In this document: positions 34,024-52,566 of the stretch, one piece after another
Layout of the letters: each line of letters starts with the position of its first letter
Position numbering within the stretch: the first letter of the stretch is position 1
IMG/VR virus record: IMGVR_UViG_3300031977_001254
Location: 1-57,097 of that record
DNA from: a virus
DNA: 57,097 nucleotides
Reading direction: 5' to 3' (one strand)
The notes under the pieces: model-generated
Database searches by the model: none
Told to the model about the DNA's origin: nothing
The model's input: the letters and a program-made list of their open reading frames with translations, nothing else
Made by a program: the position numbers and the translations under genes

Positions 34024-37000
34024 ATGAGCAATTTTACTAATAAAACATTTAAAGAAACATATCGTGATTCCTTCGATAAAACAAACGGCTATCATCGTGT
34101 ATTATTTAATGCAGGTAAGGCGCTACAAGCAAGAGAACTAAATGAGCTACAATCTATCTTCCATGAAGAACTTGCTCAATTTGGTCGTAACATCTTTAAA
34201 GAAGGCGCTATGGTCCATGCTGGTGGTTCTATGGTGGATAATTCTAAAGAATATATCCGACTACAACCAAGCAGTTTAGTACCAGACAATATTGTAGGTC
34301 AAGAATATCAAAACAGTCAAGGGATTAAATTCTTAATTGAAGAGTATCATCAAGCAACTGATACTGCACCCCAAACTCTCATTGTAAAATATACAGATAC
34401 AACAGCTGTATCTGATGCGTCAGAAGCACCACGTGTGTCTGCTAATCAGACATTAACTCCTGTGGGCGCAACTACATTCCCATTAACTGTAGCAAGCGAT
34501 GACGCTATCCCTGCAGTTGGAACGGGTACACTTATCTCAATTAGTGAAGGTGTATTTTTCGTAGATGGTCACTTCGTACAAGTAGAACAACAGTCAATAT
34601 ACATTGACATGTATAATTCAAAACCAACTGTTGACTTTGGTTTTAAAATAGTAGAAACTATAGTTACAGAAAGTGAAGATGATGGCTTGTATGATAACCA
34701 AGGAGAATTTCCAAATACTGCTGCTCCAGGTGCTCATAGATTTAAAATTGAACTTACTCCAGCAACAAGAGATCAAGTTCCAGAAGAAGAAAACTTCGTA
34801 TTTGTTGCTCGCATAGTTAACGGTGTTATTACTCGCGAAGTTGAAAGTAACGATGCATATAACATTATTAATGACTTGCTCGCTACCCGCACAAAAGAAG
34901 AATCTGGCGATTACGTAGCAAAAGAATTTAAAACTGTTGTTAATGAAAAAGACGATAGTAATTTAGATTTAGAAGTAACCCCTGGAACTGCTTACGTTGA
35001 TGGATATCGACTAGACTTTGGTACTACAAATTTAGATTTAGAAAAGGCTCGTGATACAGACAGTCTAAACAACGATAGCGTAATTGCTCAATATGGCAAC
35101 TATGTTGTTATCGATGAAGCATTAAGCACAGGTCTTTCTGAATTATCAACATTCGGTGAAGTAAGTTTAGGTGGTTCAAGTACTGCTAATGTAAGAGCTA
35201 TTGAAAATGTTGGCGGAGAATATAGACTATATCTCTTCAATATTAATATGGAAGTGGGTTCAAGCTTCAGAGACGTTACTACTATTACAGGTTCTAATGG
35301 TTCTGTTACAGTTAAGTCTTCAGGATTGTTAGGTGGTATCGATAATACATTATTGTTCCCATTATCTAATCCACGCCCTCAAGCGATAACTGACACTAAC
35401 TATACAGCACAACGTACAATTGAAGCATCGTCAGACGCATCGGGTGAAGTATTTATCTCTGAGACTGTTGACGCATCATACAACCCAGTTATATTTGAGG
35501 TTGGTGTTGGTCCTGCTACTGGTTGGTCTGTCTCTTCTAATAAAATAACAGGGTTATCTCCTTCAACAGCATATATTATAACATATTACTTTGCTGTTCC
35601 TTCTCCTGCAGTAAGATCAAAAGGTATGGCAACCGTAACCGAGAGTGTAACTCTAGGCTCTGGTGCTGCCCCTATAGATGGTCCAAACTTTACCCAAGGC
35701 GAAACTATGTGGCGTGTAGAAAACTCTACAGGCGCTGCGAGCATTGTCTGGAACGGAGAATTAATAACATCTGCGAGTTCAGCAAGTGGAATCACTACAC
35801 TAAATGCTGAGGGTTATCAATACACTCGCGGAAGCGCACAAACTCCAACGTTTACTCAATCATTTGCCCCTACATTTACAAATACAACATATGTAAACTT
35901 TGTGGGGAATTACACTAGGGATTTAAGCTTTACTGCCAGCAGAACAAGTAGCTATACGGCTTCTTATGCTGGAGAAAGGGTTCAATACTTTACTCGCTTT
36001 GGTGGTAATCCTAGAGAACCTATTTTCATAATAACTTCATCTGTGGTTCCTGGAACATTTACTGGAACACCATCAACCCGTGCGTTCACAAGTGACTTCA
36101 CTCGTTCATCTTCATATACTAGATCCCGTGCAAGTTCATACACTGGAACGTATACCCAAGGTGGAGATACTGGTACCAACGGAAACTTTACATATTATGA
36201 AGTTTCTCGTCAAGCATTGGCAAGTAGTACTTCAGACGCTTCTGTAATTGAACTTGATTATGCCGATGGTATTGAATTACTTTCTGTTTTAGATGATAGT
36301 GGTACTAACGTTACAGCTTCATTTGAATTTGATGGTGGTCAACGTGATAACTTCTATGGACCAATTAAGCTGAGACTTAAATCTGGTCTTACAGCTCAAG
36401 CAGGTTCTACATATACGGTACAATTCTCTCACTTCTATCATGAAGAAGGAGATTATTTCAGCGTGGAATCATATCCACAAGACTATGGTTTAATCCCATC
36501 ATATAAGAATTCCGCAGGTAATACAATCGCATTAACAGACGTTCTTGATTTCCGTCCAGTGGTTTTACCTTCTGGTGTAGATACTAACAGCATTAATGTA
36601 CTACCTAAGAATAAAAGTATTATTAGTGTAGACGCTACTTACTATCTACCACGTATCGATACTCTTGTTGCTAATACGTTAGACGCTAAAGGCAGAATTG
36701 GTACTGGCCGACTACAACTAATTCAAGGTGAGTCTTCATTAGACCCACGTCCACCTCAAATTCCAACTGGTTCATTACCATTATTCCAGTTTGATTTGAA
36801 TCCTTACACTGTAGACAAGACGGACTTAACAGTTACTAAGATTCCACACAAGCGTTTCACTATGAAAGATATCGCTAAGTTGGAAGAACGTGTTGAAGAA
36901 CTGTATGAATTAACGACTCTTAGTTTACTTGAAGCTGATACAGCTTCTCTTATGGTATTGGATGAGAATGGCAATAACCGCACTAAGTCTGGTTTTATTG

Positions 37001-39345
37001 CAGACAACTTTAACAGCTTAAACTTCTGTGATCTCAGCAATCCTGATTATCGCGCTTCAGTTGAGCCTGTTAATGGCGAACTAATGCCATCATTTAGAGA
37101 GAACTCAATTCGCTTATCAATGCGTGCTAATTCAACTGCACGTAAACAAGGCGATGTTGCTATATTACCATATACTAACGATTTAATGGCTTCTCAGTTA
37201 TTGGCGACTGGTAAGATGAATGTTAACCCATTTGCGGTTATCACTCAAACTGGCCACATGACACTATCACCTGCTTCAGATGAGTGGGTTGAAGTTCGTA
37301 AACTTCCAGATATTATGCAAAGCAATATCCGTAGAGTACGTACTGACAACAGAGCAACAACTAGAGGTAAACGTATTCGCACTCGTGTAGTTGAAAGAAC
37401 TATCCAAGAATTCTTGGGCGAGCAAGTTGTAGATGTTGAAGTAGTACCATTTATGCGTTCACGTGAAGTATTCTTCCGTGTTGAAGGTCTACGTCCTAAC
37501 ACTAATATGTTTGCTTTCTTTGGTAACAAACCAGTACAAGATTGGGTTCGTCAAGAAATTCGATTCAAGCACTTCTCTGACAATCCTAAAGAATATGGAA
37601 GCGAGTTTGCTAATGCTACCAGCCACCCAAGTGGAAACACTGAATTGGTAACTGATGAAAATGGTATGCTAATTGGTTCTTTCTTCTTACCAAATACCCC
37701 TAGCTTGTCATTCCGTACTGGACAGCAAGAATTTAAACTACTTGATATTGTAGTGAATGACGATGAGAATGCTATTGCTTCTTCACGTGCTATGTATGAA
37801 TCTGTAGGTCGTATTGACTCAGTACAACGTACAATTCGCTCAACCCGTATCGTAGAAAGTATTACAGAAAGATATGACCCATTAGCTCAAACGTTCTTTG
37901 TTGATCAGATTGAGAATCCAAATGGATTGTATCTATCTAAAGTAAGAATCTTCATGGAAAGTAAAGATGATACTATTCCTTTACAAGTACAAATTCGTCC
38001 TGTAGAAAATGGTATTCCGACTACACGTTTGGTTCCAGGTTCTTCTAAGTTTATATCTCCTTCTCTCATCAACGTAACACCGATGACGGATCAGACTGAT
38101 ATTGCTGACATCAGAACACAAGGCGGTACTGATGTTCAATTTGATGAACCAGTTTACTTATCTCCAGGCGAAGAATATGCAGTAGTACTATTAGCAGAGT
38201 CTGTTAAGTATAACGCATATGTTGCTGAAACTTATGAATTCATTCTTGGTCCAAACCGACGCGAAGGACGTGTTAACAAGCAACCAACTCTTGGTTCTTT
38301 ATTCTTATCGCAGAATGGTTCTACTTGGACAGCAGACCAAACTAAAGACTTGATGTTTGAATTATATAACGCATCGTTCTCGACTTCTGCTAACGTGGTT
38401 TTATCTAATGTAGAAGTTCCTAAGATTACTCTTGGTAATGATCCTATTTCAGTTGAACGTAGTAGTGCTTTGGTTCATATCGCGCATCAAGGACATGGAT
38501 TTAACGCTAATGATGAAGTTGAAATCTCAGGCGTACAAGGTACAATTGGTGGGGTAAGCGCATCAAGTATTAACGGCAATCATATTATCGCAAGTGTTTC
38601 TTGGGATGGTTATACAATTAATGCTGGCACAGTCGCTACTTCATCTGTATTAGGTGGTGGTGATCAGGTTGTAGTTAATGAACAAATTATGATTGATGAG
38701 TTGATCCCTAACATCGCTAACATCATTCCAAATGGAACAAGCATTACTGCTACAGTCCGCCAGACTTCTGGCGCTTCTTATGGCGGTAATCGTAACAATC
38801 CATTGTATAATAACTCATATTCTTCGGTTGCGTCTAAGCAGGTATTCCTGAATGACTCTAACCTAAATGATAAGCCAACTATTGTTGCTTCTCCTGAAGA
38901 TATGGAATTTGTTGTAACGTTGTCAACAAATGATACTAAAGTATCTCCTTTGATTGACCTTCAACGAACTTCTGTAATGACTATAGAAAATGTTATAGAT
39001 ATGAATGATGCTGCTCAACATATCACAACTCCAGTAATCTTAGATGAAGCTGCTGAAGGACTTAAAATATTGTTCTCTGCGCACCGTCCAAGTGATGCTC
39101 AGTTTGATGTGTATGTTAAAACTGCCACAGACGATTCATCTTTAGAGATCGCTGATTGGGTTAAAGTTGATATTGAAGCTGAAGTTCCAAGCGATGAAAG
39201 TCGTGATGTTGTACGTGAATACTCATACAGCATAGAAACTCTAGACCAATTTAGCATATTCCAAACTAAGCTTGTTATGAAATCAACTAACTCAAGTAAA
39301 GTTCCTATTGTTACTGATTTCAGAACTATAGCGCTGGCGGTATAA
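34024..39345 (+). CDS. DUF4815/VrlC-like baseplate structural protein with a tetrapeptide-repeat insertion (1,773 aa)
   Basis: The N-terminus FKETYRDSFDKTNGYHRVLF, NAGKALQARELNELQSIFHE and GRNIFKEGAMVHAGGSMVDN matches the large DUF4815 (VrlC-like) structural proteins of marine T4-likes, placed at the gp9/gp10 position of the baseplate. The C-terminal half has DPLAQTFFVDQIENPNGLYL and SPGEEYAVVLLAESVKYNAY. Around residues 599-722 the normal beta-rich sequence is interrupted by a Tyr/Arg/Phe/Gly-rich stretch (FVGNYTRDLSFTASRTSSYT, then SSYTRSRASSYTGTYTQGG). This is the same repeat type as in the 43942 protein. Probably a large baseplate or fibre-anchor protein. Confidence 0.85.
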   Translation: MSNFTNKTFKETYRDSFDKTNGYHRVLFNAGKALQARELNELQSIFHEELAQFGRNIFKEGAMVHAGGSMVDNSKEYIRLQPSSLVPDNIVGQEYQNSQGIKFLIEEYHQATDTAPQTLIVKYTDTTAVSDASEAPRVSANQTLTPVGATTFPLTVASDDAIPAVGTGTLISISEGVFFVDGHFVQVEQQSIYIDMYNSKPTVDFGFKIVETIVTESEDDGLYDNQGEFPNTAAPGAHRFKIELTPATRDQVPEEENFVFVARIVNGVITREVESNDAYNIINDLLATRTKEESGDYVAKEFKTVVNEKDDSNLDLEVTPGTAYVDGYRLDFGTTNLDLEKARDTDSLNNDSVIAQYGNYVVIDEALSTGLSELSTFGEVSLGGSSTANVRAIENVGGEYRLYLFNINMEVGSSFRDVTTITGSNGSVTVKSSGLLGGIDNTLLFPLSNPRPQAITDTNYTAQRTIEASSDASGEVFISETVDASYNPVIFEVGVGPATGWSVSSNKITGLSPSTAYIITYYFAVPSPAVRSKGMATVTESVTLGSGAAPIDGPNFTQGETMWRVENSTGAASIVWNGELITSASSASGITTLNAEGYQYTRGSAQTPTFTQSFAPTFTNTTYVNFVGNYTRDLSFTASRTSSYTASYAGERVQYFTRFGGNPREPIFIITSSVVPGTFTGTPSTRAFTSDFTRSSSYTRSRASSYTGTYTQGGDTGTNGNFTYYEVSRQALASSTSDASVIELDYADGIELLSVLDDSGTNVTASFEFDGGQRDNFYGPIKLRLKSGLTAQAGSTYTVQFSHFYHEEGDYFSVESYPQDYGLIPSYKNSAGNTIALTDVLDFRPVVLPSGVDTNSINVLPKNKSIISVDATYYLPRIDTLVANTLDAKGRIGTGRLQLIQGESSLDPRPPQIPTGSLPLFQFDLNPYTVDKTDLTVTKIPHKRFTMKDIAKLEERVEELYELTTLSLLEADTASLMVLDENGNNRTKSGFIADNFNSLNFCDLSNPDYRASVEPVNGELMPSFRENSIRLSMRANSTARKQGDVAILPYTNDLMASQLLATGKMNVNPFAVITQTGHMTLSPASDEWVEVRKLPDIMQSNIRRVRTDNRATTRGKRIRTRVVERTIQEFLGEQVVDVEVVPFMRSREVFFRVEGLRPNTNMFAFFGNKPVQDWVRQEIRFKHFSDNPKEYGSEFANATSHPSGNTELVTDENGMLIGSFFLPNTPSLSFRTGQQEFKLLDIVVNDDENAIASSRAMYESVGRIDSVQRTIRSTRIVESITERYDPLAQTFFVDQIENPNGLYLSKVRIFMESKDDTIPLQVQIRPVENGIPTTRLVPGSSKFISPSLINVTPMTDQTDIADIRTQGGTDVQFDEPVYLSPGEEYAVVLLAESVKYNAYVAETYEFILGPNRREGRVNKQPTLGSLFLSQNGSTWTADQTKDLMFELYNASFSTSANVVLSNVEVPKITLGNDPISVERSSALVHIAHQGHGFNANDEVEISGVQGTIGGVSASSINGNHIIASVSWDGYTINAGTVATSSVLGGGDQVVVNEQIMIDELIPNIANIIPNGTSITATVRQTSGASYGGNRNNPLYNNSYSSVASKQVFLNDSNLNDKPTIVASPEDMEFVVTLSTNDTKVSPLIDLQRTSVMTIENVIDMNDAAQHITTPVILDEAAEGLKILFSAHRPSDAQFDVYVKTATDDSSLEIADWVKVDIEAEVPSDESRDVVREYSYSIETLDQFSIFQTKLVMKSTNSSKVPIVTDFRTIALAV
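35818..36190 (+). repeat. Tetrapeptide-repeat insertion within the DUF4815-like gene
   Basis: About 124 codons rich in Tyr, Phe, Arg, Ser, Thr and Gly, with YxG-/YxR-type tetrads (for example FTSDFTRSSSYTRSRASSYT). The flanks are ordinary fibre sequence (Asp/Val/Ile-rich). Limits are approximate. Confidence 0.7.
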
Positions 39346-41217: not shown

Positions 41218-41688
41218 ATGGCTGATTATACTTTATCATATACAAGGACATTATCATTTGCTGGTAATTATGTTGCCGTAACTTCTTCTCGGGATTATAC
41301 CAGATATCGCGACAGTACATTTTCGCAAGGTTTTACAACAAGCTATGACGGCACGTATTCAAGGGATTATATAGGAAACTATTCAAGGGATTATACAGGC
41401 TATTATAGCAGATCCTTTTCGCGTACAAGAATAGAATCATATGCGGGCGATAGAACACAGAACTTTACTGCTGTCAGAACATCTGTAACAAGTACAAGAT
41501 TCGACGAAGATTACTTTAGTAGAACGCTAAACTATACTACTTATTATTCAAGAGCTAGAGCACAGAACTTCCTAAGAGATTATACCGCATTTTATGGCGG
41601 TTCATACACACGTGTTTGTACTCGTTCATCTGAAGTTGTTACTTGTACAGTGTTTGTTGGCGCGCCACCAGGATTCCAGGAGAACTAA
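41218..41688 (+). CDS. Tetrapeptide-repeat fibre protein (156 aa)
   Basis: A 156-residue protein almost entirely of the Tyr/Arg tetrad type: YDGT YSRD YIGN YSRD YTGY YSRS FSRT RIES. Short breaks are followed by SVTSTRFDEDYFSRTLN. The end (VCTRSSEVVTCTVFVGAPPG) is non-repetitive and holds the only two cysteines. It has no signal peptide. Arg codons include AGA/AGG, unlike the CGT-rich giant copy at 43942. The TAATG junction with the following related gene implies coupled translation. The function is unknown; probably a virion fibre component. Confidence 0.8.
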   Translation: MADYTLSYTRTLSFAGNYVAVTSSRDYTRYRDSTFSQGFTTSYDGTYSRDYIGNYSRDYTGYYSRSFSRTRIESYAGDRTQNFTAVRTSVTSTRFDEDYFSRTLNYTTYYSRARAQNFLRDYTAFYGGSYTRVCTRSSEVVTCTVFVGAPPGFQEN

Positions 41689-42473
41689 TGCCAACTTACG
41701 ATTATACAACCACTCAATATTTTTCCAGAACTATAACACGTGCTGGTGGAACATCAGCTGATTTTACTGGGTTTAGTAGAACTGGATACTTTTCAAGATA
41801 CCGCCCTGAAGTCACGAGTACTCGTATTGGTACATACGCCCGAAGTTATTATAATCCCCAAGGCGAACCAAATATATTATTCTACGCTACCTCATACACC
41901 GGAGATTTCGTAGGTAATTTTACTCGAACTACATATGGATACTTTAGTAGAACATCTGTTGAAGATTATACTGGATATTATTCTAGAGCCTTTATCGGGA
42001 ATTACTCTAGAGATTTTGTAGGCACATATTCTAGATCTTCGACTGGAGTCTTTACTGGAACATTCACAAGATCGTATAGCAGAAACTTTACTAGAGATTA
42101 TACAATAACATCTACCAGAACAAGTACATACACACGTACAATATCAGGTGGTTCTGGGGAAGCTCCTACATATACAGCATCGTCAGGTTCTGATGCTGAA
42201 TACGGATTAGTTGTATATGGTCCAGATGGTACTACAGAAATAATTAATCCTACAACGCGAGTTATTAATTTGGCATTCTACGGAACTGTTGCGGTTAACG
42301 CTAACTCATCAGCTACCGTAACAATCGAAGATGTTGGTGATCCTAGTAAAGTCACAGTATCCTTAGTTGTATTCTATGAGGGTATTAATTTAACAACATC
42401 GGGCAATACGTTGACAGTTACTAATACTAGAAATTACAATGTTAGTCCTACCTTAATTGCGATAAGGATTTAG
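41688..42473 (+). CDS. Tetrapeptide-repeat fibre protein with C-terminal beta domain (261 aa)
   Basis: The ATG at 41688 has a strong AGGAGAA upstream; an earlier in-frame start at 41643 would lie inside the previous gene. Residues 1-150 carry Tyr/Phe/Arg tetrads (YTGD FVGN FTRT; YTGY YSRA FIGN YSRD FVGT YSRS). The rest is a compact beta domain: AEYGLVVYGPDGTTEIINPT, then VSLVVFYEGINLTTSGN. The next gene begins with a similar 'YGLxVxxxDxxG' strand, so the C-terminal part looks like a small adhesin or tip module joined to a repeat shaft. Confidence 0.8.
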   Translation: MPTYDYTTTQYFSRTITRAGGTSADFTGFSRTGYFSRYRPEVTSTRIGTYARSYYNPQGEPNILFYATSYTGDFVGNFTRTTYGYFSRTSVEDYTGYYSRAFIGNYSRDFVGTYSRSSTGVFTGTFTRSYSRNFTRDYTITSTRTSTYTRTISGGSGEAPTYTASSGSDAEYGLVVYGPDGTTEIINPTTRVINLAFYGTVAVNANSSATVTIEDVGDPSKVTVSLVVFYEGINLTTSGNTLTVTNTRNYNVSPTLIAIRI

Positions 42474-42476
42474 AAA

Positions 42477-43220
42477 ATGAGTTACGGATTACAGGTTCAA
42501 TCATATGATAGTGGTGGCAATGTCATCACTCAAATTGATACAGAAAAAGGTTACGTCCAGTATGTAGTAACTCACATTGGAACAGGAAGTTCTGTAAATG
42601 TGACAGGCATTAGCCCAAGAGCTAAAATATTGGTGAAGCCATTACTTAATACTGCTGGAACAGGATATGCTGCTGTACAAACATTTACTGGCGGTGCATT
42701 AGGTGACTATCCTTTATGCATAAAAGCTGGAACTAGAAATGGTCCAACTTTGAAGTTCGTTACCAGTGATTCTGGTGCATACTATGGCGATGGTATGGCT
42801 TGGAATGATGCATTTAATCCTGTTGCTTGTAACTACATGATAATTCAAGATGTTACTGATGTCACTCCAACAGGCGACTATGGATTACAAACATTAACTG
42901 CAGCTGGTGCTAGTTCATTTGATTCGCGTAAAATAAAATATAATACTAAAGTGACTATCAATTCAATTATACCAGCTAGATCAGTGGGTGGAGCAGGCAA
43001 CGCTTCTGACCAGATAAGTAACAATCTAAATAATTATATTGATATGAGTGGTTCGTTCTGGGACACGTTAGGTAGTTATAGTGGACTACGAGTAATAGCT
43101 GATACTACATCAGTAAGATACGTTCATCAATATCAAAATGAACCATCACCAACAGAAAATTTTAATCCGATATACTATTATGATAATTATGGTACTATCT
43201 GGATTGCAGGAATATCTTAA
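42477..43220 (+). CDS. Fibre tip/adhesin-like protein (247 aa)
   Basis: A 247-residue beta-rich protein starting SYGLQVQSYDSGGNVITQID, which resembles the beta domain of the 41688 protein. It continues with TGISPRAKILVKPLLNTAG, NYMIIQDVTDVTPTGDYGLQ and a Tyr-rich end (PIYYYDNYGTIWIAGIS). There are no tetrad repeats. Gly/Ser/Thr/Asn-rich beta sequence and the position between repeat-fibre genes and a tail-assembly chaperone suggest a distal, receptor-facing protein. Not recognised as a named family. Confidence 0.7.
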   Translation: MSYGLQVQSYDSGGNVITQIDTEKGYVQYVVTHIGTGSSVNVTGISPRAKILVKPLLNTAGTGYAAVQTFTGGALGDYPLCIKAGTRNGPTLKFVTSDSGAYYGDGMAWNDAFNPVACNYMIIQDVTDVTPTGDYGLQTLTAAGASSFDSRKIKYNTKVTINSIIPARSVGGAGNASDQISNNLNNYIDMSGSFWDTLGSYSGLRVIADTTSVRYVHQYQNEPSPTENFNPIYYYDNYGTIWIAGIS

Positions 43221-43237: not shown

Positions 43238-43708
43238 ATGAGTAAAGTAGTAAAATATGTGGCTACTATTGAGGAAAGTACAGGTCGCATTATGAATGTA
43301 GAATTTCCTCAAGCAACATTAAAGCCAGAAGGTACAACGGATGGGATGACGGTAATCCATATTACTGAAGATAACATGCCAGAAGGGTTCATGAACATTG
43401 GGTGGAATCCAATGCTTCACTTTTGGGATGGTGAGACATTCATTCACGTAGGTACACCGCCTAATCGTCACGCTATATATAATGGTACAGATTGGGAATG
43501 GGATCAAGAGTTATTGGTGAGTGATGTTAGAACACATCGTGACCGTTTACTAGCTCAAAGCGATTGGACTCAAATGCCAGACGCTCCATTCACAGAAGAA
43601 GAAAAGACTGCTTGGCAAGCATATCGTCAAGAACTCAGAGACTTTATGTCTAGTCTACCAAATGAATTTGATTCTGTGCAATCATTATCATGGCCAATTC
43701 AACCATAG
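43238..43708 (+). CDS. Tail fibre assembly chaperone-like protein
   Basis: A 156-residue protein with the phage tail-assembly chaperone (TAC) ending: VRTHRDRLLAQSDWTQMPDA, PFTEEEKTAWQAYRQELRDF. The front (YVATIEESTGRIMNVEF, PEGFMNIGWNPMLHFWDGE) is of the DUF4376/fibre-chaperone type. Such proteins bind fibres during folding and are often not in the virion. It follows the fibre genes and has GAGGAAA upstream of its ATG. Confidence 0.85.
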   Translation: MSKVVKYVATIEESTGRIMNVEFPQATLKPEGTTDGMTVIHITEDNMPEGFMNIGWNPMLHFWDGETFIHVGTPPNRHAIYNGTDWEWDQELLVSDVRTHRDRLLAQSDWTQMPDAPFTEEEKTAWQAYRQELRDFMSSLPNEFDSVQSLSWPIQP

Positions 43709-43941: not shown

Positions 43942-46900
43942 GTGTCAGCATCTAGTATCCCATTAAAAATACTAAATTCAGATGGTGACCTGAGGGAATT
44001 CACGCCAATAGAAGAAAACTATTTGGCGTATGCAGTCGGACAAGCATTATTGACACCAGATACTGGCTCATTAACTCTTGATCCTAGTGGCGTTGCGGTT
44101 GGTTCATATGTTGATACATATTTCAACGAATCACCTGGAACTCACCCTGCTAGTCAGATCACATCTGGATCAACTACTACGACCTTGCGTCAAGTGGCTG
44201 GACCAGCAAGTGAATCTGGTCAGAATATTCCTGTAGGTTACTACGAACAAGACCCAAATCCAGGCTTCTACGAAATGGTAGACGCGGATTTAACTAATCT
44301 CGCTAAACGTGTATTGGGTAATATGGTCGAAAATGACTATATTGGAACATACAGATTAGCATCTTCTTCTCCAGGTTCTGATTATTCTATTCACATTTCT
44401 AATGTGTTTTCAGATACCCGTGGCGACGGAGCATCAACTAACTATCACATCTATGTCCGTAATTCAATGGCATCTGTTGCAGCAACTCGTCCTGTTCGTA
44501 TTCGTTATGACGGTTCAAGCTTCGACGGCTTCCAAGAAATGACAGACGCTGAGATCCAACAAGTATTGGGTCAACGCATTAAAACATTAAGAGCAAGTGC
44601 AGGCGAGATTGGTTCATACCAGTTACGTTCTTCAGCACAAGGTGCTCCAATCGGTGGTGGTGTATGGAGAGCAGTTGGTACAGCTTTTAATACAAAATTA
44701 ACAACAGCACAGATTGACTATACTCGCACACGTAACTCTGCTTATGTTCAGACTCGCGTGTCGGCATATACTCGTAACCGTATTTCAACTTTTGTTGGTA
44801 CATACTCAAGAACAACAAGCAATGTATTCGCAGGTAACTACATTGGAAACTACTCACGTGGTTTTACTGGTAACTACTCACGTGGTTTTGCTGGTGAATA
44901 CACTGGTGATTTCATTGGCGTATATTCTCGTCTACGTTCTTCTGCATATTCTGCAAACTATACTCGCGAAAGAATTTCAACATATACTGGAACTTATTCA
45001 CGTACTCGTGTAAGCACATACGTTGGTAACTATGCTCGCGCATTTGCTGGCGAATACACTCGTGGGTTTGCTGGTAACTATACTGGTGAGTTTACTCGTA
45101 CTCGTATAAGCTCTTATGTTGGTGTATATGCGCGTACACGTACATCTACTTACTCAGGTAACTACTCAAGAAACTTTGCGGGCAACTATTCTCGTGGATT
45201 TACTGGTGAATACTCTCGTGCATATACTCGCGAACGTATCTCATCATACACAGGAACCTATTCGCGCACTCGTGTAAGTACATATGCTGGTAACTATTCT
45301 CGTGGATTTGCTGGCAACTATAGCCGTGGATTTGCTGGTAACTATAGCCGTGCATTTACTCGTAGCCGTGTATCAGCTTATGCTGGAACATATTCTAGAG
45401 ATCGTGTAAGTACATATGCTGGCAACTACGCTCGCAACTTTATAGGTAATTACTCACGTGCATTTGCTGGTAACTATAGCCGTGCATTTACTCGTGGTCG
45501 TGTTTCTACGTTTACTGGAACATATTCACGTACACGTAATTCATCTTATGCTGGTACTTACTCTCGTGGATTCACAGGCAACTACAGCCGTGCGTTCGGC
45601 GGTAACTATGCTCGTGCGTTTACACGTGGTCGCGTTTCTACCTTTACTGGTGAATATGCTCGTACTCGTAACTCAGCTTACTCAGGTACATATGCCCGTG
45701 GATTCGTAGGTAACTATGCTCGTGGATTCGTTGGTAACTACGCTCGTGCGTATACTCGTGGTCGTGTTTCTACTTTCAGTGGTACATATTCACGTACTCG
45801 CCCATCTAGCTACTCTGCAGACTACACGCGTAATCGTGTAAGCACATATGCTGGTACTTACTCACGTAACCGCGTTTCAGTTTATTCACGTAACCGTGTT
45901 TCTGCTTATGCAGGTACATATGCTCGTAACCGTGTAAGCTCTTATGCTGGTACATATTCACGTAACCGTGTATCATCTTACGCTGGTACTTACGTTAGAA
46001 CTCGTTCAAGCGCATACTCGCGCGTTCGCTTAACTGCGTTTGCTGCTGATTACACAGGCGTTTATACTCGTGCTCGCGCTTCAGTTTATACTCGTGCTCG
46101 TGTAAGTTCATACGCTGCTGATTACACAGGCGTTTACTCACGTAACCGTGTAAGCACATACGCCCGTACTCGTACTTCTGCTTATGCTGCTGACTACACT
46201 GGCACATATTCACGTAATCGTGTAAGTACATATGCTCGTACTCGTAGCTCTGCTTATGCTGGTACATATACAGGCGTTTATTCACGCAACCGTGTATCAA
46301 CATACTCGCGTGCTCGTACATCAGCTTATGCTCGTGACCGTGTAACGAACTTTGCTGGTAACTTTATCGGTAACTATTCACGTGGGTTTGCTGGTAACTA
46401 TTCTCGTGGATTCGTTGGTAACTATTCTCGTGGGTTTGCTGGTAACTATATCGGTAACTATGCAAGAACAAGTACTCGTACTTCTACGCGTGGTCGTGTT
46501 TCATCTTACGCTCGTACTCGTGTTACTAACTATGTTGGCGACTTTACTAGAAACAGACTTGTAACATATACTGGCGATTTCATCGGTAATTATGCAACTA
46601 CATTTACTGGTGACTTCGTAGGCAACTATGCTCGTAACTATGTTGGCGATTTTGCTGGTAACTTTACTGGTAATTATGCAACTACGTTTACTGGCGACTT
46701 TGTTGGTAACTATGCTCGTGGATACGCAGGCAACTATGCTGGTAACTTTGTTGGCGAATATGCCCGTACACGCGTTACTGACTATGCTGGCGATTTCGTA
46801 GGTAACTATGCAACTACATTTACTGGTGACTTCGTAGGTAACTATGCTCGTGGATATGCTGGTAACTTTGCTGGTAACTTTGTTGGTGAATATGCTCGTA

Positions 46901-49900
46901 CACGTGTTACTAACTCAACACGTACTTCTACTCGTACACTAGCTTATACTCGTACATTGTATTACACTGGTAACTATGCTCGCGCATTTGCTCGTACACG
47001 TGTTACTAACTATACAACTACACCTTCATACAGCCGTACTCGTGTAACAAACTATACAACCTCACCTTCGTATAGCCGTGAGCGTCCTTATTACCCAACG
47101 TACTCACGTGAACGTGGTTTCTACTACACTGGCAACTACTCACGCACATTGTATTATGCTGGCAACTATGCTCGTACATTGTATTACACAGGTAATTACG
47201 CTCGTACATTGTATTACACTGGCAACTATGCTCGTACATTGTATTACACAGGTAATTACGCTCGTACAGTTTACTATACTGGTAACTATGCTCGTACAGG
47301 TTATTATGCTGGTAACTATACTCGTCCGATAACTTCGACTAGAACTTCAACGAGAGTCTCTACTCGATATGGACCACCAATGGGTCCAGATCCAGGTGAT
47401 ATTGAGTTCTATACTAGCTACTATACTGGTAACTTCGTTGGAACTGGATATTATACGCGTACTTCAACTCGTTCATTAGTATACACTCGTGCACGCGGTA
47501 TTACTCCATCATATTCTCGTGACCGTGCTTACTATCCATCATATGCTCGTGACCGTGCTTACTATCCATCATATGCTCGTGACCGTGCTTACTATCCAGC
47601 ATATACTCGTAACCGCCCATACTACCCATCGTATGCTCGTGACCGTTTAAGCTACTATACTGGTAACTATGCGCGTACTTACTACTATACTGGTAACTAT
47701 GCTCGTACATTAGTATATACTGGTGACTTCGTAGGTAACTATGCTCGTACGAATGTCTATACTGGCGACTTCGTTGGTAACTATGCTCGCGCATACGCTG
47801 CTGATTATACTCGTACAGGTTATTATACTCGTACAGGTTACTACACTGGTGACTTCGTAGGCGACTTCGTAGGTAACTACGCTCGTACTTCAACGCGTAC
47901 ATCTACACGTACTCGTTACAGTGCATACGCTCGTACTCGTATCACAAACTATGTTGGTGACTTTACGCGTAACCGTGTAACAAACTTTGCTGGTAACTTC
48001 GTTGGTAACTACGCAAGAACTTCTACTAGAACTTCTACACGTACTCGTTACAGTGCATACGCTCGTACTCGTATCACAAACTATGTTGGTGACTTTACTC
48101 GAGTTTCTACACGTAACTCTACCCGTAATCGTTATAGCGCTTATGCTCGTACTCGTATTACCAACTATGTTGGTGACTTCACGCGCAACCGTACAGCAGG
48201 CTATGTTGGTGACTTTGTTGGTAACTATGCGACTACATTCGCAGGTAACTTCGTCGGTAACTATGCTAGAACGTTTGCTGGTGAATATGCAGGTAACTTT
48301 GTTGGCGAATACGCTCGTACTTCTACTCGTACTCGTTACAGCGCTTATGTCCGTACTCGTGTTTCAGCTTATGCTCGCAACCGTGTCTCAACATATGCTC
48401 GTGATCGTGTAACTAACTTTGCTGGCAACTTCGTAGGAAACTACGCAAGAACATTCACTGGTAACTATGCTCGTGGATTCGCTGGTGAGTACACTGGTAA
48501 CTACGTCGGCAACTATGCTCGCAACTATGTTGGTAACTATGCTCGTGGATTCTCTGGTCAGTATGTTGGTAACTACGTTGGCAACTATGCGCGCAACTAT
48601 GTTGGTAACTATGCTCGCGGTTTCTCTGGTCAATACACTGGTAACTACGTCGGCAACTATGCTCGTACATTCGGCGGTAACTACGCAAGAACATTTGCTG
48701 GTAATTACACTGGTAACTATGTCGGTAACTACACTGGCGACTTTACTGGTAACTATAGCCGTGGATTCGTAGGTGAGTACACTGGTACTTACTCAAGAGG
48801 ATTCTCTGGTCAGTATGCTGGCACATATAACCGTACATTTGTCGGTGAATACACTGGTACTTACTCTCGTGGATTCTCTGGTCAGTATACCCGTGGATTC
48901 TCTGGTCAATACGTAGGTAACTATGCTCGTGGATTTGCTGGTAACTATGTTGGTAACTATTCACGTAACTTCGTCGGTGAGTACACAGGCGCTTATGCTA
49001 CCACTTATACTGGTAACTATGCTCGTGGCTTTACTCGTACTCGTGTAAGTTCTTATGCTCGCACACGTACTTCGACATATGCTGGTAACTATTCACGTAA
49101 CTTTGCTGGCGAATATACTGGTGCGTATGCAACTACATACACTGGTAATTATTCTCGCAACTATACACGTTCACGCGTTTCTGCTTACGCTCGAGTTCGT
49201 TCTTCTGCTTACGCAGGTAACTACTCTCGTGACTTTGTAGGTGAATACACTGGTACATATGCGACAACATATACTGGCAACTACTCTCGCAACTATACAC
49301 GTTCACGTGTTTCTGCTTATGCTCGAGTTCGTCCGTCAACATATGCTGGTAACTATGCTAGAACGTTTACTGGTGAATACACTGGTACATATAACCGTGC
49401 CTTTGCTGGTAACTACTCACGTAATTACTCACGTAACCGCGTATCTGTATATGCTCGCACTCGTGTTTCTGCTTATGCAGGTACATATGCTCGTAACTTT
49501 GTAGGTGAATACACTGGTACTTACTCTCGCGGATTCGCAGGTAACTACTCACGTGACTTCACTCGCTTACGTATGTCAACTTACACTCGTTCACGTCCAT
49601 CTGCTTATGCAGGTACATATGCTCGTAACTTTGTAGGTGAATACACTGGTTACTATAGCCGTGGGTTTGCTGGTAACTATTCGCGTGACTTTACACGTAA
49701 CCGTATCAGCACATACTCACGTACTCGTTTCTCAACATATGCTGGCAACTATGCTCGCAACTTTGCTGGCGAATACACTGGAACTTATTCTCGTGGCTTC
49801 GCAGGTGATTATGTTGGTAACTATAGTCGTGGTTTTGCTGGTGAATATACTGGTAACTACACAAGCGTGTTCTCACGTACTCGTGTAAGTGCATATTCTC

Positions 49901-50121
49901 GTTTACGTACTTCAGCTTATAGTGCTGATTATACTCGTGATCGTGTATCAACTTATGTTGGTAACTACATTGGTGAATATGCTACTGGATACACTGGTAA
50001 TTATTCGCGCGACTTTATAGGAAACTATTCAAGAGCGTTTGTAGGTAACTACACTGGTATGACTATCCAACCTACATTTAACATTGTTGAAACATACACG
50101 TTATATGTAAGGGTTGCTTAA
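43942..50121 (+). CDS. Giant tetrapeptide-repeat protein (2,059 aa)
   Basis: GTG start with AAGAGAG upstream and no internal stop over 6.2 kb. Residues 1-259 form an ordinary globular domain (SIPLKILNSDGDLREFTPIE; PGFYEMVDADLTNLAKRVLG). From Tyr260 almost everything is in tetrads [YFR]-[STAV]-[GRSA]-[any]: YSRG FAGN YSRG FAGE, or YSRN RVST YART RTSA. A middle zone has decapeptides (YARTLYYTGN; SYARDRAYYP) and one non-repeat break (YGPPMGPDPGDIEF). The end is MTIQPTFNIVETYTLYVRVA. I see no Lys, Cys, His or Trp in the repeat part. It is very basic through Arg. Probably a virion fibre or surface protein; no family recognised. Confidence 0.85.
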   Translation: MSASSIPLKILNSDGDLREFTPIEENYLAYAVGQALLTPDTGSLTLDPSGVAVGSYVDTYFNESPGTHPASQITSGSTTTTLRQVAGPASESGQNIPVGYYEQDPNPGFYEMVDADLTNLAKRVLGNMVENDYIGTYRLASSSPGSDYSIHISNVFSDTRGDGASTNYHIYVRNSMASVAATRPVRIRYDGSSFDGFQEMTDAEIQQVLGQRIKTLRASAGEIGSYQLRSSAQGAPIGGGVWRAVGTAFNTKLTTAQIDYTRTRNSAYVQTRVSAYTRNRISTFVGTYSRTTSNVFAGNYIGNYSRGFTGNYSRGFAGEYTGDFIGVYSRLRSSAYSANYTRERISTYTGTYSRTRVSTYVGNYARAFAGEYTRGFAGNYTGEFTRTRISSYVGVYARTRTSTYSGNYSRNFAGNYSRGFTGEYSRAYTRERISSYTGTYSRTRVSTYAGNYSRGFAGNYSRGFAGNYSRAFTRSRVSAYAGTYSRDRVSTYAGNYARNFIGNYSRAFAGNYSRAFTRGRVSTFTGTYSRTRNSSYAGTYSRGFTGNYSRAFGGNYARAFTRGRVSTFTGEYARTRNSAYSGTYARGFVGNYARGFVGNYARAYTRGRVSTFSGTYSRTRPSSYSADYTRNRVSTYAGTYSRNRVSVYSRNRVSAYAGTYARNRVSSYAGTYSRNRVSSYAGTYVRTRSSAYSRVRLTAFAADYTGVYTRARASVYTRARVSSYAADYTGVYSRNRVSTYARTRTSAYAADYTGTYSRNRVSTYARTRSSAYAGTYTGVYSRNRVSTYSRARTSAYARDRVTNFAGNFIGNYSRGFAGNYSRGFVGNYSRGFAGNYIGNYARTSTRTSTRGRVSSYARTRVTNYVGDFTRNRLVTYTGDFIGNYATTFTGDFVGNYARNYVGDFAGNFTGNYATTFTGDFVGNYARGYAGNYAGNFVGEYARTRVTDYAGDFVGNYATTFTGDFVGNYARGYAGNFAGNFVGEYARTRVTNSTRTSTRTLAYTRTLYYTGNYARAFARTRVTNYTTTPSYSRTRVTNYTTSPSYSRERPYYPTYSRERGFYYTGNYSRTLYYAGNYARTLYYTGNYARTLYYTGNYARTLYYTGNYARTVYYTGNYARTGYYAGNYTRPITSTRTSTRVSTRYGPPMGPDPGDIEFYTSYYTGNFVGTGYYTRTSTRSLVYTRARGITPSYSRDRAYYPSYARDRAYYPSYARDRAYYPAYTRNRPYYPSYARDRLSYYTGNYARTYYYTGNYARTLVYTGDFVGNYARTNVYTGDFVGNYARAYAADYTRTGYYTRTGYYTGDFVGDFVGNYARTSTRTSTRTRYSAYARTRITNYVGDFTRNRVTNFAGNFVGNYARTSTRTSTRTRYSAYARTRITNYVGDFTRVSTRNSTRNRYSAYARTRITNYVGDFTRNRTAGYVGDFVGNYATTFAGNFVGNYARTFAGEYAGNFVGEYARTSTRTRYSAYVRTRVSAYARNRVSTYARDRVTNFAGNFVGNYARTFTGNYARGFAGEYTGNYVGNYARNYVGNYARGFSGQYVGNYVGNYARNYVGNYARGFSGQYTGNYVGNYARTFGGNYARTFAGNYTGNYVGNYTGDFTGNYSRGFVGEYTGTYSRGFSGQYAGTYNRTFVGEYTGTYSRGFSGQYTRGFSGQYVGNYARGFAGNYVGNYSRNFVGEYTGAYATTYTGNYARGFTRTRVSSYARTRTSTYAGNYSRNFAGEYTGAYATTYTGNYSRNYTRSRVSAYARVRSSAYAGNYSRDFVGEYTGTYATTYTGNYSRNYTRSRVSAYARVRPSTYAGNYARTFTGEYTGTYNRAFAGNYSRNYSRNRVSVYARTRVSAYAGTYARNFVGEYTGTYSRGFAGNYSRDFTRLRMSTYTRSRPSAYAGTYARNFVGEYTGYYSRGFAGNYSRDFTRNRISTYSRTRFSTYAGNYARNFAGEYTGTYSRGFAGDYVGNYSRGFAGEYTGNYTSVFSRTRVSAYSRLRTSAYSADYTRDRVSTYVGNYIGEYATGYTGNYSRDFIGNYSRAFVGNYTGMTIQPTFNIVETYTLYVRVA
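44719..50060 (+). repeat. 12-base / tetrapeptide repeat array
   Basis: About 5.3 kb of degenerate 12-base units (roughly 440 tetrads), commonly GGTAACTATGCTCGT-like. Synonymous codons vary from copy to copy (GGT/GGC, AAC/AAT, TAT/TAC), while the residue pattern stays. The arrays 44719-46910 and 47740-50060 are tetrads. The centre 46910-47740 has 30-base units and the break at about 47335-47405. Edges are approximate. Confidence 0.9.
47902..48098 (+). repeat. Exact 65-base direct repeat (47902-47966 and 48034-48098)
   Basis: Both copies read from TCTACACGTACTCGT to GTTGGTGACTTTAC without a difference and start 132 bases apart, eleven 12-base units. Recent in-register duplication is the simplest reading. 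Confidence 0.9.
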
Positions 50122-50172: not shown

Positions 50173-50228
50173 TATTATACGACTATATAATGACTGAAAT
50201 GAATTTTTAATACCAATTGGAGTTTATA

Positions 50229-50675
50229 ATGGCTAGTAAAAAATGGCTGGATAATGCGTTCTGGGAAACAGAAGAAAAAAATCAACTTAACTGTATCTTA
50301 GAAATTGTTGACGATGAAGGTCGAGAAATTCGACAAGTTATGAAATTAAACCGCAATGAACGTGATGGTTCGCCAAACGAAATGTTTGATGAGGTTGTAG
50401 CTACACTAGGTGAAGAAGCTATTGACCGCGAAACTGCAGAACGTGTAGAGCGTAAAAAAGCTGAAGCTGAAGAAAACAAACAACGTGACCTTGAGCATCA
50501 GAAAGCAAGAAAATTAGAAAAACTTTTCAACTATAAACTAGAAGCGTTTGAAGTTGAAGAGATTAAAAACTCAAAGAACCGAAAACTTAAAGGTAAGTTG
50601 CGTCGAGCTAAATCTCGAATAGAAGTAGATCTATACTCTATTATGATTTTACAAGAATCGCTTGAGGTTGAGTAA
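50229..50675 (+). CDS. Unknown charged coiled protein (148 aa)
   Basis: A 148-residue protein; the ATG at 50229 is used rather than a TTG four codons earlier. The N-terminal part is mixed (SKKWLDNAFWETEEKNQLNC; ILEIVDDEGREIRQVMKLN). The C-terminal half is a strongly charged helix (AERVERKKAEAEENKQRDLE; RKLEKLFNYKLEAFEVEEIK). Similar proteins lie next to fibre genes in marine T4-likes and may be assembly factors, but I do not recognise a family. The next gene starts 1 base after its stop. Confidence 0.68.
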   Translation: MASKKWLDNAFWETEEKNQLNCILEIVDDEGREIRQVMKLNRNERDGSPNEMFDEVVATLGEEAIDRETAERVERKKAEAEENKQRDLEHQKARKLEKLFNYKLEAFEVEEIKNSKNRKLKGKLRRAKSRIEVDLYSIMILQESLEVE

Positions 50676-50676
50676 A

Positions 50677-51417
50677 ATGGAAAATAAAAGTAAAGGGTTT
50701 GTTATCGTCGCGAGTCGCAATCGCAACTTTTATTTGTATGCTATTAATCTAGCAGAATCGCTTCGAGACTTTTATGAACCTGAAGACGAGTGTAACATTT
50801 GTATTGTTACCGAAGAAAGATTTATTGACGATCGTGGATACGATGTTGCAGATCAAGTTATTTTCTGTGATGACCACTATCGAGCGAAATTGTGGGGTAT
50901 GGCAAGATCGCCATATGACCTTACAATGTATATTGATGCTGATATGGAATGTGAGCACGAAGATATCGTTAAAGTTTGGGATGAGATGAAAGACCATGAT
51001 ATGGTATTCTCTGAACTAACTGATGATCGTGACTACATATATGCAGAACGTGATTTTGATACACCAGAAGGCAAAGCTAAATTTGTCCTTTGTGGTGGCG
51101 TTTGTTTGTATGATATGTCTAAACCAATTGTGCGCGAATTCATGCAAGATTGGTGGGACTTAACCCAAAGGCAGATGAACGATACTTGGTGGCCAGAAGG
51201 TTATGCTGACTCCCTTAAATCTTGGGATCAGTTTAGCTTGTGGTGGTTGACCGAGAAAGAAGAAAAATATAAAGATCTTAAAGTCGGTATCTTTGATGAC
51301 GACTTACGGTGGAACTATTACAACGCTCTTAATTGGGCAAGAACTCAGCCTAAAGATGGACCAGTGATTTTACGTCACTTCTCTGCTGGCTTAGAAAAGG
51401 ATAAACCAATCTTATGA
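50677..51417 (+). CDS. Glycosyltransferase-like protein (GT-A fold)
   Basis: A 246-residue protein: GFVIVASRNRNFYLYAINLA, CNICIVTEERFIDD, YDLTMYIDADMECEHEDIVK. DAD is the metal/nucleotide-sugar DxD motif in the position typical of GT-A enzymes. Later WWPEGYADSLKSWDQFSLWW and PVILRHFSAGLEKDKP resemble GT8-like C-terminal blocks with a His. The predicted role is sugar transfer. It overlaps the oxygenase-like gene by 4 bases; this pair sits among fibre genes and could modify virion or cell-surface components. Confidence 0.78.
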   Translation: MENKSKGFVIVASRNRNFYLYAINLAESLRDFYEPEDECNICIVTEERFIDDRGYDVADQVIFCDDHYRAKLWGMARSPYDLTMYIDADMECEHEDIVKVWDEMKDHDMVFSELTDDRDYIYAERDFDTPEGKAKFVLCGGVCLYDMSKPIVREFMQDWWDLTQRQMNDTWWPEGYADSLKSWDQFSLWWLTEKEEKYKDLKVGIFDDDLRWNYYNALNWARTQPKDGPVILRHFSAGLEKDKPIL

Positions 51418-52121
51418 CACAGATTAACGACTCATATCTCAAGCACGTGGATGTCAACAATCCAGAACTGTTAGAGATTCTAAACGAATACGCAAGCCTT
51501 CACCAGATGGAAGGGTTTGTTGAAAATTGTCATCTAACAGCAGAAGAACATGCACGTCAACGTCCTCATTGGATGGGTGATACGTATCGTCAAGAAGTTG
51601 TTGATCAAGGATCTGCCCATGAAGGCTTCCCTGATATGTTGGTGGCATATAACTTTAAACTGTCTGAACGCGCTCATACCTTTTTCAAAGGTGATGCTGA
51701 CCCAGTATTCAAACGCGACATGACCCAAAAGCTAGGCGAGCTTAATGACCGCATGATGAACTTCTTGTCGGTTAAGCATAACGCATTGTGTGCAGTATAT
51801 CCTCCAGGTGGATTCATTTCATGGCACAACAACGCAAATGCTCCAGGTTATAACCTAGTCTTTACTTGGTCTGAAACTGGCGACGGGCACTTCTCTTATA
51901 TTCACCCTGAGACAAAAGAAATTGTCAAGTGTGAAGATAGTGCTGGTAAATGGACTTGCAAAGCTGCTTATTTTGGTTCTCATGCTGAACCTGAAAAGCA
52001 ACTGTACCATGCTGCTGAGAGTGAATGTTGGCGCGTTACTGTTTCTTATGTATTTGACTGGAGTGATACTTCAGAAGAATTCCGTGAAATGGTATTAGAA
52101 GATATATCTTCGGAAGTTTAA
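51414..52121 (+). CDS. 2OG-Fe(II) oxygenase-like protein with an HxN site
   Basis: A 235-residue protein with a cupin-like core: LCAVYPPGGFISWHNNANAP, GYNLVFTWSETGDGHFSYIH, and YHAAESECWRVTVSYVFDW. The layout is that of 2OG-Fe(II) oxygenases (first His, then a distal His and Arg). The usual HxD motif reads H-N-N here (His about residue 138), so the carboxylate ligand seems replaced. It could be a divergent oxygenase or a non-catalytic relative. It is coupled by ATGA to the glycosyltransferase-like gene before it. Confidence 0.72.
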   Translation: MTQINDSYLKHVDVNNPELLEILNEYASLHQMEGFVENCHLTAEEHARQRPHWMGDTYRQEVVDQGSAHEGFPDMLVAYNFKLSERAHTFFKGDADPVFKRDMTQKLGELNDRMMNFLSVKHNALCAVYPPGGFISWHNNANAPGYNLVFTWSETGDGHFSYIHPETKEIVKCEDSAGKWTCKAAYFGSHAEPEKQLYHAAESECWRVTVSYVFDWSDTSEEFREMVLEDISSEV

Positions 52122-52206: not shown

Positions 52207-52566
52207 ATGTCAACAACTTATGAAGACTTTACTATATCTCAAGGTTCGGACGTAGCGTTTGAACTTGAGCTTGTAGAACTTGATGGTTCTACAAAAGACC
52301 TCACTGGATACGCTGTTGAAGCGAAGATGAAAAAGTCTTTCAACAGTGACACCGATAAGACTATTGACTTTACTGCTATCGTTTCTCAACCTGCGACCGA
52401 TGGTATTGTAGTCCTTTCCCTTACAAACGAACAAACAGACGATTTATCTACAAGAGGTAGGTATGTTTATGACGTTGAATTAAGTTACAGCGATAGTGAC
52501 GGTAATTTAATGGTAGAACGCATTCTAGAAGGTAAGATTAAAGTCTCTCCTTCAGTAACAAGGTAA
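52207..52566 (+). CDS. Fibre-associated beta-sandwich protein (119 aa)
   Basis: A 119-residue beta-rich protein: YEDFTISQGSDVAFELELVE, LDGSTKDLTGYAVEAKMKKS, TDGIVVLSLTNEQTDDLSTR and VERILEGKIKVSPSVTR. The pattern 'QGxDxxFxLxLxxxDGSxxDLTGYxVxAxxK' is that of the N-terminal domains of phage fibre/baseplate proteins such as BppU-like and marine phage structural proteins. It lies at the head of a fibre operon. Its expression is likely restricted to late transcripts by the hairpin upstream. Confidence 0.78.
   Translation: MSTTYEDFTISQGSDVAFELELVELDGSTKDLTGYAVEAKMKKSFNSDTDKTIDFTAIVSQPATDGIVVLSLTNEQTDDLSTRGRYVYDVELSYSDSDGNLMVERILEGKIKVSPSVTR

Follow-up and report, generated by a model that had tools for sequence, protein, structure and literature searches.

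A tetrapeptide-repeat protein of a T4-like marine phage, probably a receptor-binding fibre folded as a giant mirror-paired β hairpin

The IMG/VR virus record IMGVR_UViG_3300031977_001254, analysed here over positions 1 to 57,097 (57,097 nucleotides, hereafter the window), carries a T4-like tail region encoding a baseplate tail tube cap, a hub/lysozyme, gp6-like, wedge and gp8-like proteins and a phrog_358/DUF4815 tail protein. Within this region, a plus-strand open reading frame (ORF) at 43942-50121 encodes 2059 amino acids (aa), the same coordinates and length as given in an earlier interpretation made without database searches (the sequence-only reading); it starts with GTG, and the GTG-encoded start VSASSIPLK is kept in relatives. 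Because it is encoded among tail, baseplate and fibre assembly genes, the product probably belongs to the tail fibres, and the earlier guess of a surface fibre fits this context, including the adjoining tail assembly chaperone and a homologue of L-shaped tail fibre assembly proteins. We consider it likely that the protein is the virion receptor-binding fibre of a T4-like marine phage, built as a giant antiparallel β hairpin, probably trimeric, with a hypervariable distal tip.

Between aa 262 and 2040 the fibre contains ~445 tetrads of the form [Y/F/R]-small-[G/R/S]-x, in line with the ~440 units from about residue 260 described before. Autocorrelation over aa 256-2040 was high at all lags divisible by 4 (z = 12, 28, 25 and 28 at k = 4, 8, 12 and 24, respectively), including the anticipated peaks at 4 and 8, and fell below chance at odd lags. 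The repeats are free of Cys, His, Lys and Trp and rich in Arg, as had been noticed by eye, with 243 Arg, 65 Asp plus Glu and 372 Tyr plus Phe among 1779 residues and a net charge of about +178. The Tyr codons vary (173 TAT and 102 TAC), and the two halves of the repeat region, here termed limbs, gave a ratio of nonsynonymous to synonymous substitution (dN/dS) of 0.05-0.08 against a relative, L004, which points to strong purifying selection on the protein and corroborates the earlier argument from codon variation. Alternation of side-chain faces of the β type, also suggested earlier, fits the repeat. The register described earlier needs one refinement, in that the tetrad phase shifts at aa ~1000-1300, where a PPxGPDPGD loop is flanked by decads, (YYTGNYARTL)n and (YYPSYARDRA)n, instead of octads. 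This zone lies in the middle of the repeat region and would form the apex of the fold proposed below.

Table 1 Features of the fibre gene and of linked genes in the window.
Feature	Coordinates	Strand	Basis or remark
N-terminal base domain (aa 1-252)	43942..44697	+	66% identity to Phage C48C1; relatives in 20 IMG/VR loci
Outgoing limb, tetrads (aa 253-1066)	44698..47139	+	pairs without gaps with the mirrored aa 1231-2044
Apex region (aa 1067-1230), paired decads and putative chain reversal	47140..47631	+	symmetry centre; decads on both sides; tetrad phase change
Putative tip loop RYGPPMGPDPGDIEF (aa 1142-1156)	47365..47409	+	lies on the mirror axis (residue sum 2297, 1-based)
Returning limb, tetrads (aa 1231-2044)	47632..50073	+	mirror pairing with outgoing limb
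C-terminal strand ...ETYTLYVRVA (aa 2045-2059)	50074..50118	+	conserved in nearly all relatives
Phage tail assembly chaperone, putative fibre-folding helper	43238..43708	+	PF16778 E=2.6e-18; PHROG tail fiber assembly
152-aa protein, first gene downstream	50217..50675	+	adjoins fibre in almost every sufficiently long locus
GT-A glycosyltransferase, glycogenin-like fold, invariant DAD (D87-A88-D89)	50677..51417	+	Foldseek and invariant residues
2-oxoglutarate-oxygenase-like protein, invariant HNN...H...R, possible fibre hydroxylase	51414..52121	+	cassette conservation; family inferred
β-sandwich protein, L-shaped tail fibre assembly family	52207..52566	+	phrog_3304 E=4.4e-14; LtfC-like PF23926 weak
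Small tetrad protein, no clear mirror axis	41218..41688	+	same tetrads as fibre
Small tetrad protein, no clear mirror axis	41643..42473	+	same tetrads as fibre
Tetrad and tip-domain-like insert (aa 543-743) in phrog_358/DUF4815 tail protein	35650..36252	+	pairwise alignment; mostly absent from C48C1 orthologue

Searches of Pfam (up to E=1) with the whole fibre and its ends gave no match, including none to pentapeptide, MORN or collagen-like repeats, and searches of PHROGs and of PDB sequences with the same queries gave nothing significant, which agrees with the sequence-only reading that the repeat belongs to no named family. A search of metagenomic phages, as proposed there, did find relatives, on more than 100 marine phage contigs of IMG/VR, with the N-terminal (N) domain in 20 loci, the repeat in 102 stretches and the glycosyltransferase encoded downstream of the fibre in 240. 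Complete relatives range from 850 to 3884 aa, with the N domain and the C-terminus (ETYTLYVRVA) conserved and the repeat length highly variable. Among named phages the closest is C48C1 (OQ984149), whose record is placed under Kyanoviridae and gives no host; the gp6-like protein of the window shares 48% identity with C48C1 and ~33% with Methylophilales phage Melnitz and Pelagibacter phage HTVC008M. Across 50,697 phage records, the N domain and the glycosyltransferase were found in none other than C48C1, whose CDS0201 (3347 aa, annotated 'hypothetical protein') resembles the window fibre in its N domain (Table 1), tetrads, C-terminus and downstream cassette, but differs in having a small apex domain and five large non-tetrad domains (104-230 aa), all in the returning limb. 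The literature search returned no description of this tetrad repeat and none of Phage C48C1 or its accession.

The first lead to a pairing between the two limbs was an alignment of close relatives, in which insertions and deletions (indels) came in equal-sized pairs, one per half. In relative L004 (1189 aa), window aa 340-627, 728-775 and 836-951 (288, 48 and 116 aa) are missing, as are aa 1343-1458, 1517-1564 and 1661-1948 (116, 48 and 288 aa), which form an exact mirror set. When a zone of <130 residues from the apex was excluded, the indel totals were exactly equal between limbs in 24 of 38 related, not entirely independent, pairs with limb indels (r = 0.97), and in several of the others the partner indel fell inside the excluded apex zone or non-tetrad inserts were involved. 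Distinct events include L012/L013 (two genes), L048/L056, L071/L083, L071/L085, L047/L060, L009/L035, L006/L009, L018/L078, L014/L018, L019/L015 and L004/window, and even register-breaking sizes (14, 30 and 102 aa) are matched in both halves. DNA inverted repeats, considered as a source of the symmetry, were looked for, and none of at least 20 bp was found.

To quantify the pairing, each residue was compared with the residue equidistant from the other end of the chain, with a motif conserved in the N domain and YTLYVR at the C-terminus as anchors. Pooled over 48 relatives, the mirror mutual information formed a single peak of 0.35 bits against 0.163 ± 0.032 across 321 offsets, and the peak persisted after dereplication to 22 proteins (0.341, with a background maximum of 0.218). 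In leave-one-out scoring, 34 of the 48 proteins picked offset 8 or 9 among 601. A rule learned on another clade placed the axis of the window protein at a residue sum of 2295 (0-based) with a score of 732, compared with 287 for the next axis and with 163 ± 37 (maximum 303) after 200 tetrad shuffles of one limb. The best gap-free pairing in the window matched aa 253-1066 with aa 2044-1231 (786 versus 427 for the next axis), placing the apex at aa ~1148. Pairing the halves in the same direction gave no comparable axis. In C48C1 CDS0201 the limbs pair piecewise (859-1292:1372-1805, 575-851:2128-2404 and 263-335:3256-3328); its whole-protein axis fails because of the inserted domains, in which a Pfam search found nothing significant, and three short segments between the inserts are ambiguous. 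Given that both covariation and indels are mirrored, we conclude that the two halves of the repeat pair with each other antiparallel and in register.

The paired tetrads follow a code. In the window's group, RxS tetrads lie opposite [YF]xG in 257 of 257 cases (112 expected) and never opposite YxR or RxS. Position-wise counts over 3131 tetrad pairs from 33 proteins revealed an excess at position 1 of Y:Y (1380 observed, 931 expected), R:F (627, 214) and F:R (344, 109), with R:R almost absent (2 versus 108 expected); a second R:R count was likewise low (26 versus 415 expected). Position 3 was enriched in R:G (932, 621), G:R (530, 308), R:S (314, 138), S:R (391, 132), T:G (277, 134) and G:T (194, 70), while S:G (6, 206) and T:R (0, 85) were avoided. 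The signal peaked at exact register (0.47 and 0.66 bits) and faded within ~12 residues. This near-deterministic code gives the impression that residues on one face of a strand pair complement each other in size and charge.

Sequence variation is concentrated at the apex. In the clade of L071, identity is 0.62-0.73 at aa 841-1080, around an apex at aa 960, and 0.90-1.0 elsewhere along the limbs, and the apex itself differs between relatives, some having a short loop and others a small domain without tetrads. The whole of L004, predicted as a monomer by AlphaFold from 25 family sequences, was confident at aa 1-250 (predicted local distance difference test, pLDDT, mostly 85-95) and in a strand at aa 1180-1187 (pLDDT 92). 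A Foldseek search of this model against PDB and BFVD gave no significant match for the base domain. The C-terminal strand is predicted to dock on the N domain, with which it would have to pair because the model has no other ordered strands, so that the two chain ends meet.

Taking these observations together, we propose that the chain leaves the base domain, runs outward for ~890 residues as a tetrad-repeat β strand, turns at aa ~1148 and returns in strict register, with its C-terminal strand completing the base domain. The limbs would face each other through a steric and charge code, Y:Y or F:R at position 1 and R:G, R:S or T:G at position 3, which, with R:R almost excluded, would keep more than 800 residue pairs in register. 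Three of these hairpins would probably assemble into a needle of six strands, as in the T4 gp37 stem. Each limb may reach ~270-290 nm at 3.3 Å per residue if the strands are fully extended, which makes this an upper estimate, and the variable apex would likely be the distal tip that contacts the receptor.

Several results weigh against this proposal. The AlphaFold prediction was confident at the chain ends but left the limbs unfolded, with a pLDDT of ~25 and no secondary structure at aa 255-1176 of L004. Homology to gp37 was not detected by PDB sequence searches or, at significance, by Foldseek against PDB and BFVD, and the repeats hold no His for iron sites of the gp37 HxH type. The fibre was found in no isolate with a known host. 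Finally, mirror covariation is equally expected from an antiparallel homodimer or higher antiparallel bundle, in which two opposite chains would meet at a two-fold axis at aa 1148 with no fold-back, and neither covariation nor paired indels alone can separate intra-chain from inter-chain pairing. We nevertheless regard the dimer as unlikely: its strands would have to be continuous across a centre where the tetrads are interrupted by Pro/Gly-rich loops or small domains, which suit a turn, and where the hypervariability is that expected of a distal tip; moreover, a fibre with identical ends suits a tail poorly, and the T4 gp37 precedent is a hairpin. The hairpin probably forms within one chain.

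The other folds considered by the sequence-only reading, whose interpretation as a whole is partly supported, were a β-solenoid, a silk-like sheet and a Tyr-Arg sticker polymer, none of which predicts mirror covariation and mirror indels. In a β-solenoid or silk-like sheet, which we hold to be very improbable, the halves would fold separately and be equal only by history, through duplication or inversion; the autocorrelation period of 4/8/24 would be in keeping with coils of 8 or 24 residues, but the halves are complementary rather than identical, as the invariable RxS to [YF]xG pairing in the window's group illustrates, mirrored indels persist in recent relatives, and neither DNA inverted repeats nor such an axis in same-direction pairing was found. 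A triple β-helix with octads or 24-residue turns, derived from the same autocorrelation, was dropped, as mirror pairing is not predicted by it. Least probable of all is a disordered Tyr/Arg sticker-and-spacer polymer forming an adhesive or condensate-like coat, which would match the abundance of Tyr, Phe and Arg, the high positive charge and the unstructured AlphaFold limbs, but not the strict tetrad spacing, the residue-level covariation at a single axis or the compensation of indels to the residue, register-breaking ones included.

Tetrads also occur in other tail genes. In L012/L013, L030, L087, L090 and L094, two tetrad fibres stand in tandem, their N domains being different (e.g. MSLDKALK..., MAYSDIPIRIK...), and several of these paralogues show a mirror axis too. 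In L094 (JAAXIF010000028.1), the contig with both fibres and the same downstream cassette was binned as a Sphingobacteriales metagenome-assembled genome; it is probably a phage contig and hence no evidence of host. Relatives of the window gene at 42477-43220 (MSYGF...) carry tetrads in L079:1859-5962, L053 and L072. In L079 these make up shorter mirror segments nested about a single apex, which suggests that the hairpin module is mobile among tail genes. In the window itself, a scan of the two small tetrad proteins and of the insert in the phrog_358/DUF4815 protein (34024-39345) revealed no clear axis; the small domain of this insert resembles the apex domains of fibre relatives. The window further encodes, at 26518-32631, a 2037-aa repetitive 'TDSDLSALAQDVTTL'-type tail protein with many Asp-Ser-Asp motifs, probably a coiled-coil fibre, which matched only unrelated coiled-coil families.

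The PF16778 chaperone gene, whose product may be a folding chaperone of the gp38/gp57A type, lies directly upstream of the fibre, its putative client. Directly downstream, nearly every locus with room encodes the 152-aa protein, the glycosyltransferase and the oxygenase-like protein, and of the 75 glycosyltransferase loci whose upstream sequence is long enough, 73 have a tetrad fibre within 3.2 kb upstream; the two exceptions have the fibre one gene further (L162) or are cut off by the contig end (L161). The best Foldseek match of the glycosyltransferase model (mean pLDDT 70) is human glycogenin-1 (E 2e-5, probability 1.00), with a modest TM-score of ~0.45; the GT-A fold and the invariant DxD motif suit a GT8/glycogenin-like enzyme. 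Given that glycogenin glucosylates its own tyrosine, glycosylation of the Tyr-rich fibre by the linked enzyme is an attractive idea. The activity of the oxygenase-like protein, found among the 50,697 named phage records only in C48C1, is uncertain because it has Asn (HNN) where 2-oxoglutarate oxygenases usually have Asp (HxD).

A broader proposal, on which we are evenly balanced, is that these proteins form a fibre class in which the complementarity code (Y:Y, F:R, R:G/S, T:G and no R:R) sets the register over 800-1000 pairs, with limbs that behave like complementary strands and change length only by mirror indels, and in which the phage's own tyrosine-type glycosyltransferase, and perhaps the oxygenase, decorates the fibre. 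Phage fibres are a known kind of structure; in the literature we found, there was no account of the code-paired hairpin and its length, of mirrored indels or of the linked glycosyltransferase. If the hairpin reading is correct, sequence alone reveals how one of the longest phage fibres is folded in its topology, together with a readable pairing code, which would offer a direct route to the design of programmable β fibres and allow the receptor-binding tip to be located in hundreds of uncultivated marine phages. It would also raise the questions of how mirror indels arise and how a 2,000-residue chain finds its register, and would point to a possible phage system for glycosylating its own tail fibre.

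Among known systems, the closest parallel is the C-terminal needle of T4 gp37, reportedly divided by Bartual et al. in 2010 into a collar, D10, and a stem and tip, D11. The gp37 stem comprises residues 882-931 and 960-1009 around a tip at 932-959, all inserted in a collar formed by 811-881 and 1010-1026 (PMC6957217), and folds as a six-stranded needle (PMC9659904). Both chains run out and back with equal stem segments around a central tip, the pairing being intra-chain in gp37 and inferred to be so in the fibre, and in both the N- and C-terminal flanks share one base domain, in the fibre according to the AlphaFold prediction on L004. The tip of gp37 binds the receptor, and the fibre apex is its putative counterpart. 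Even the gp37 contact G921-F970 is an exact mirror pair (sum 1891 = 882+1009) that places Gly opposite a bulky residue, as in the fibre code. The gp37 stem, however, has 50 residues per limb versus at least 814 in the fibre, ~16 times longer, and lacks both tetrads and a Tyr/Arg code. The fibre would thus work like the gp37 needle, but because the tests for homology and for iron-binding His failed, we do not class it as a gp37 member.

Other systems share single aspects of this design. Mycobacteriophage Tweety gp54 has conserved ends and a tetrapeptide number that varies from 48 to 26 to 15 across three phages (PMC2884959). It differs from the fibre in its AA[G/W/Q][S/Y]-type repeats, for which no mirror pairing has been reported, and in the long, flexible tail of the phage that carries it. 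Cyanophage GN[V/L]T / VTGN repeat proteins (e.g. S-RIM2 SWTG_00067; L003:3588-9326, S-RIM2) are likewise period-4 repeat structural proteins of T4-like marine phages; in S-RIM2 the stretch is short, has Val/Leu in place of Tyr/Phe/Arg and is only 31% identical over a repeat segment, and its BLAST matches were rejected as fibre relatives on account of this different, VTGN-type repeat. Although α-helical and unrelated in sequence and function, the antiparallel coiled-coil arms of SMC and Rad50 offer a further analogy to the proposed hairpin, in that the chain goes out and returns along arms of matched length, with an apex domain at the far end and the termini meeting at the other.

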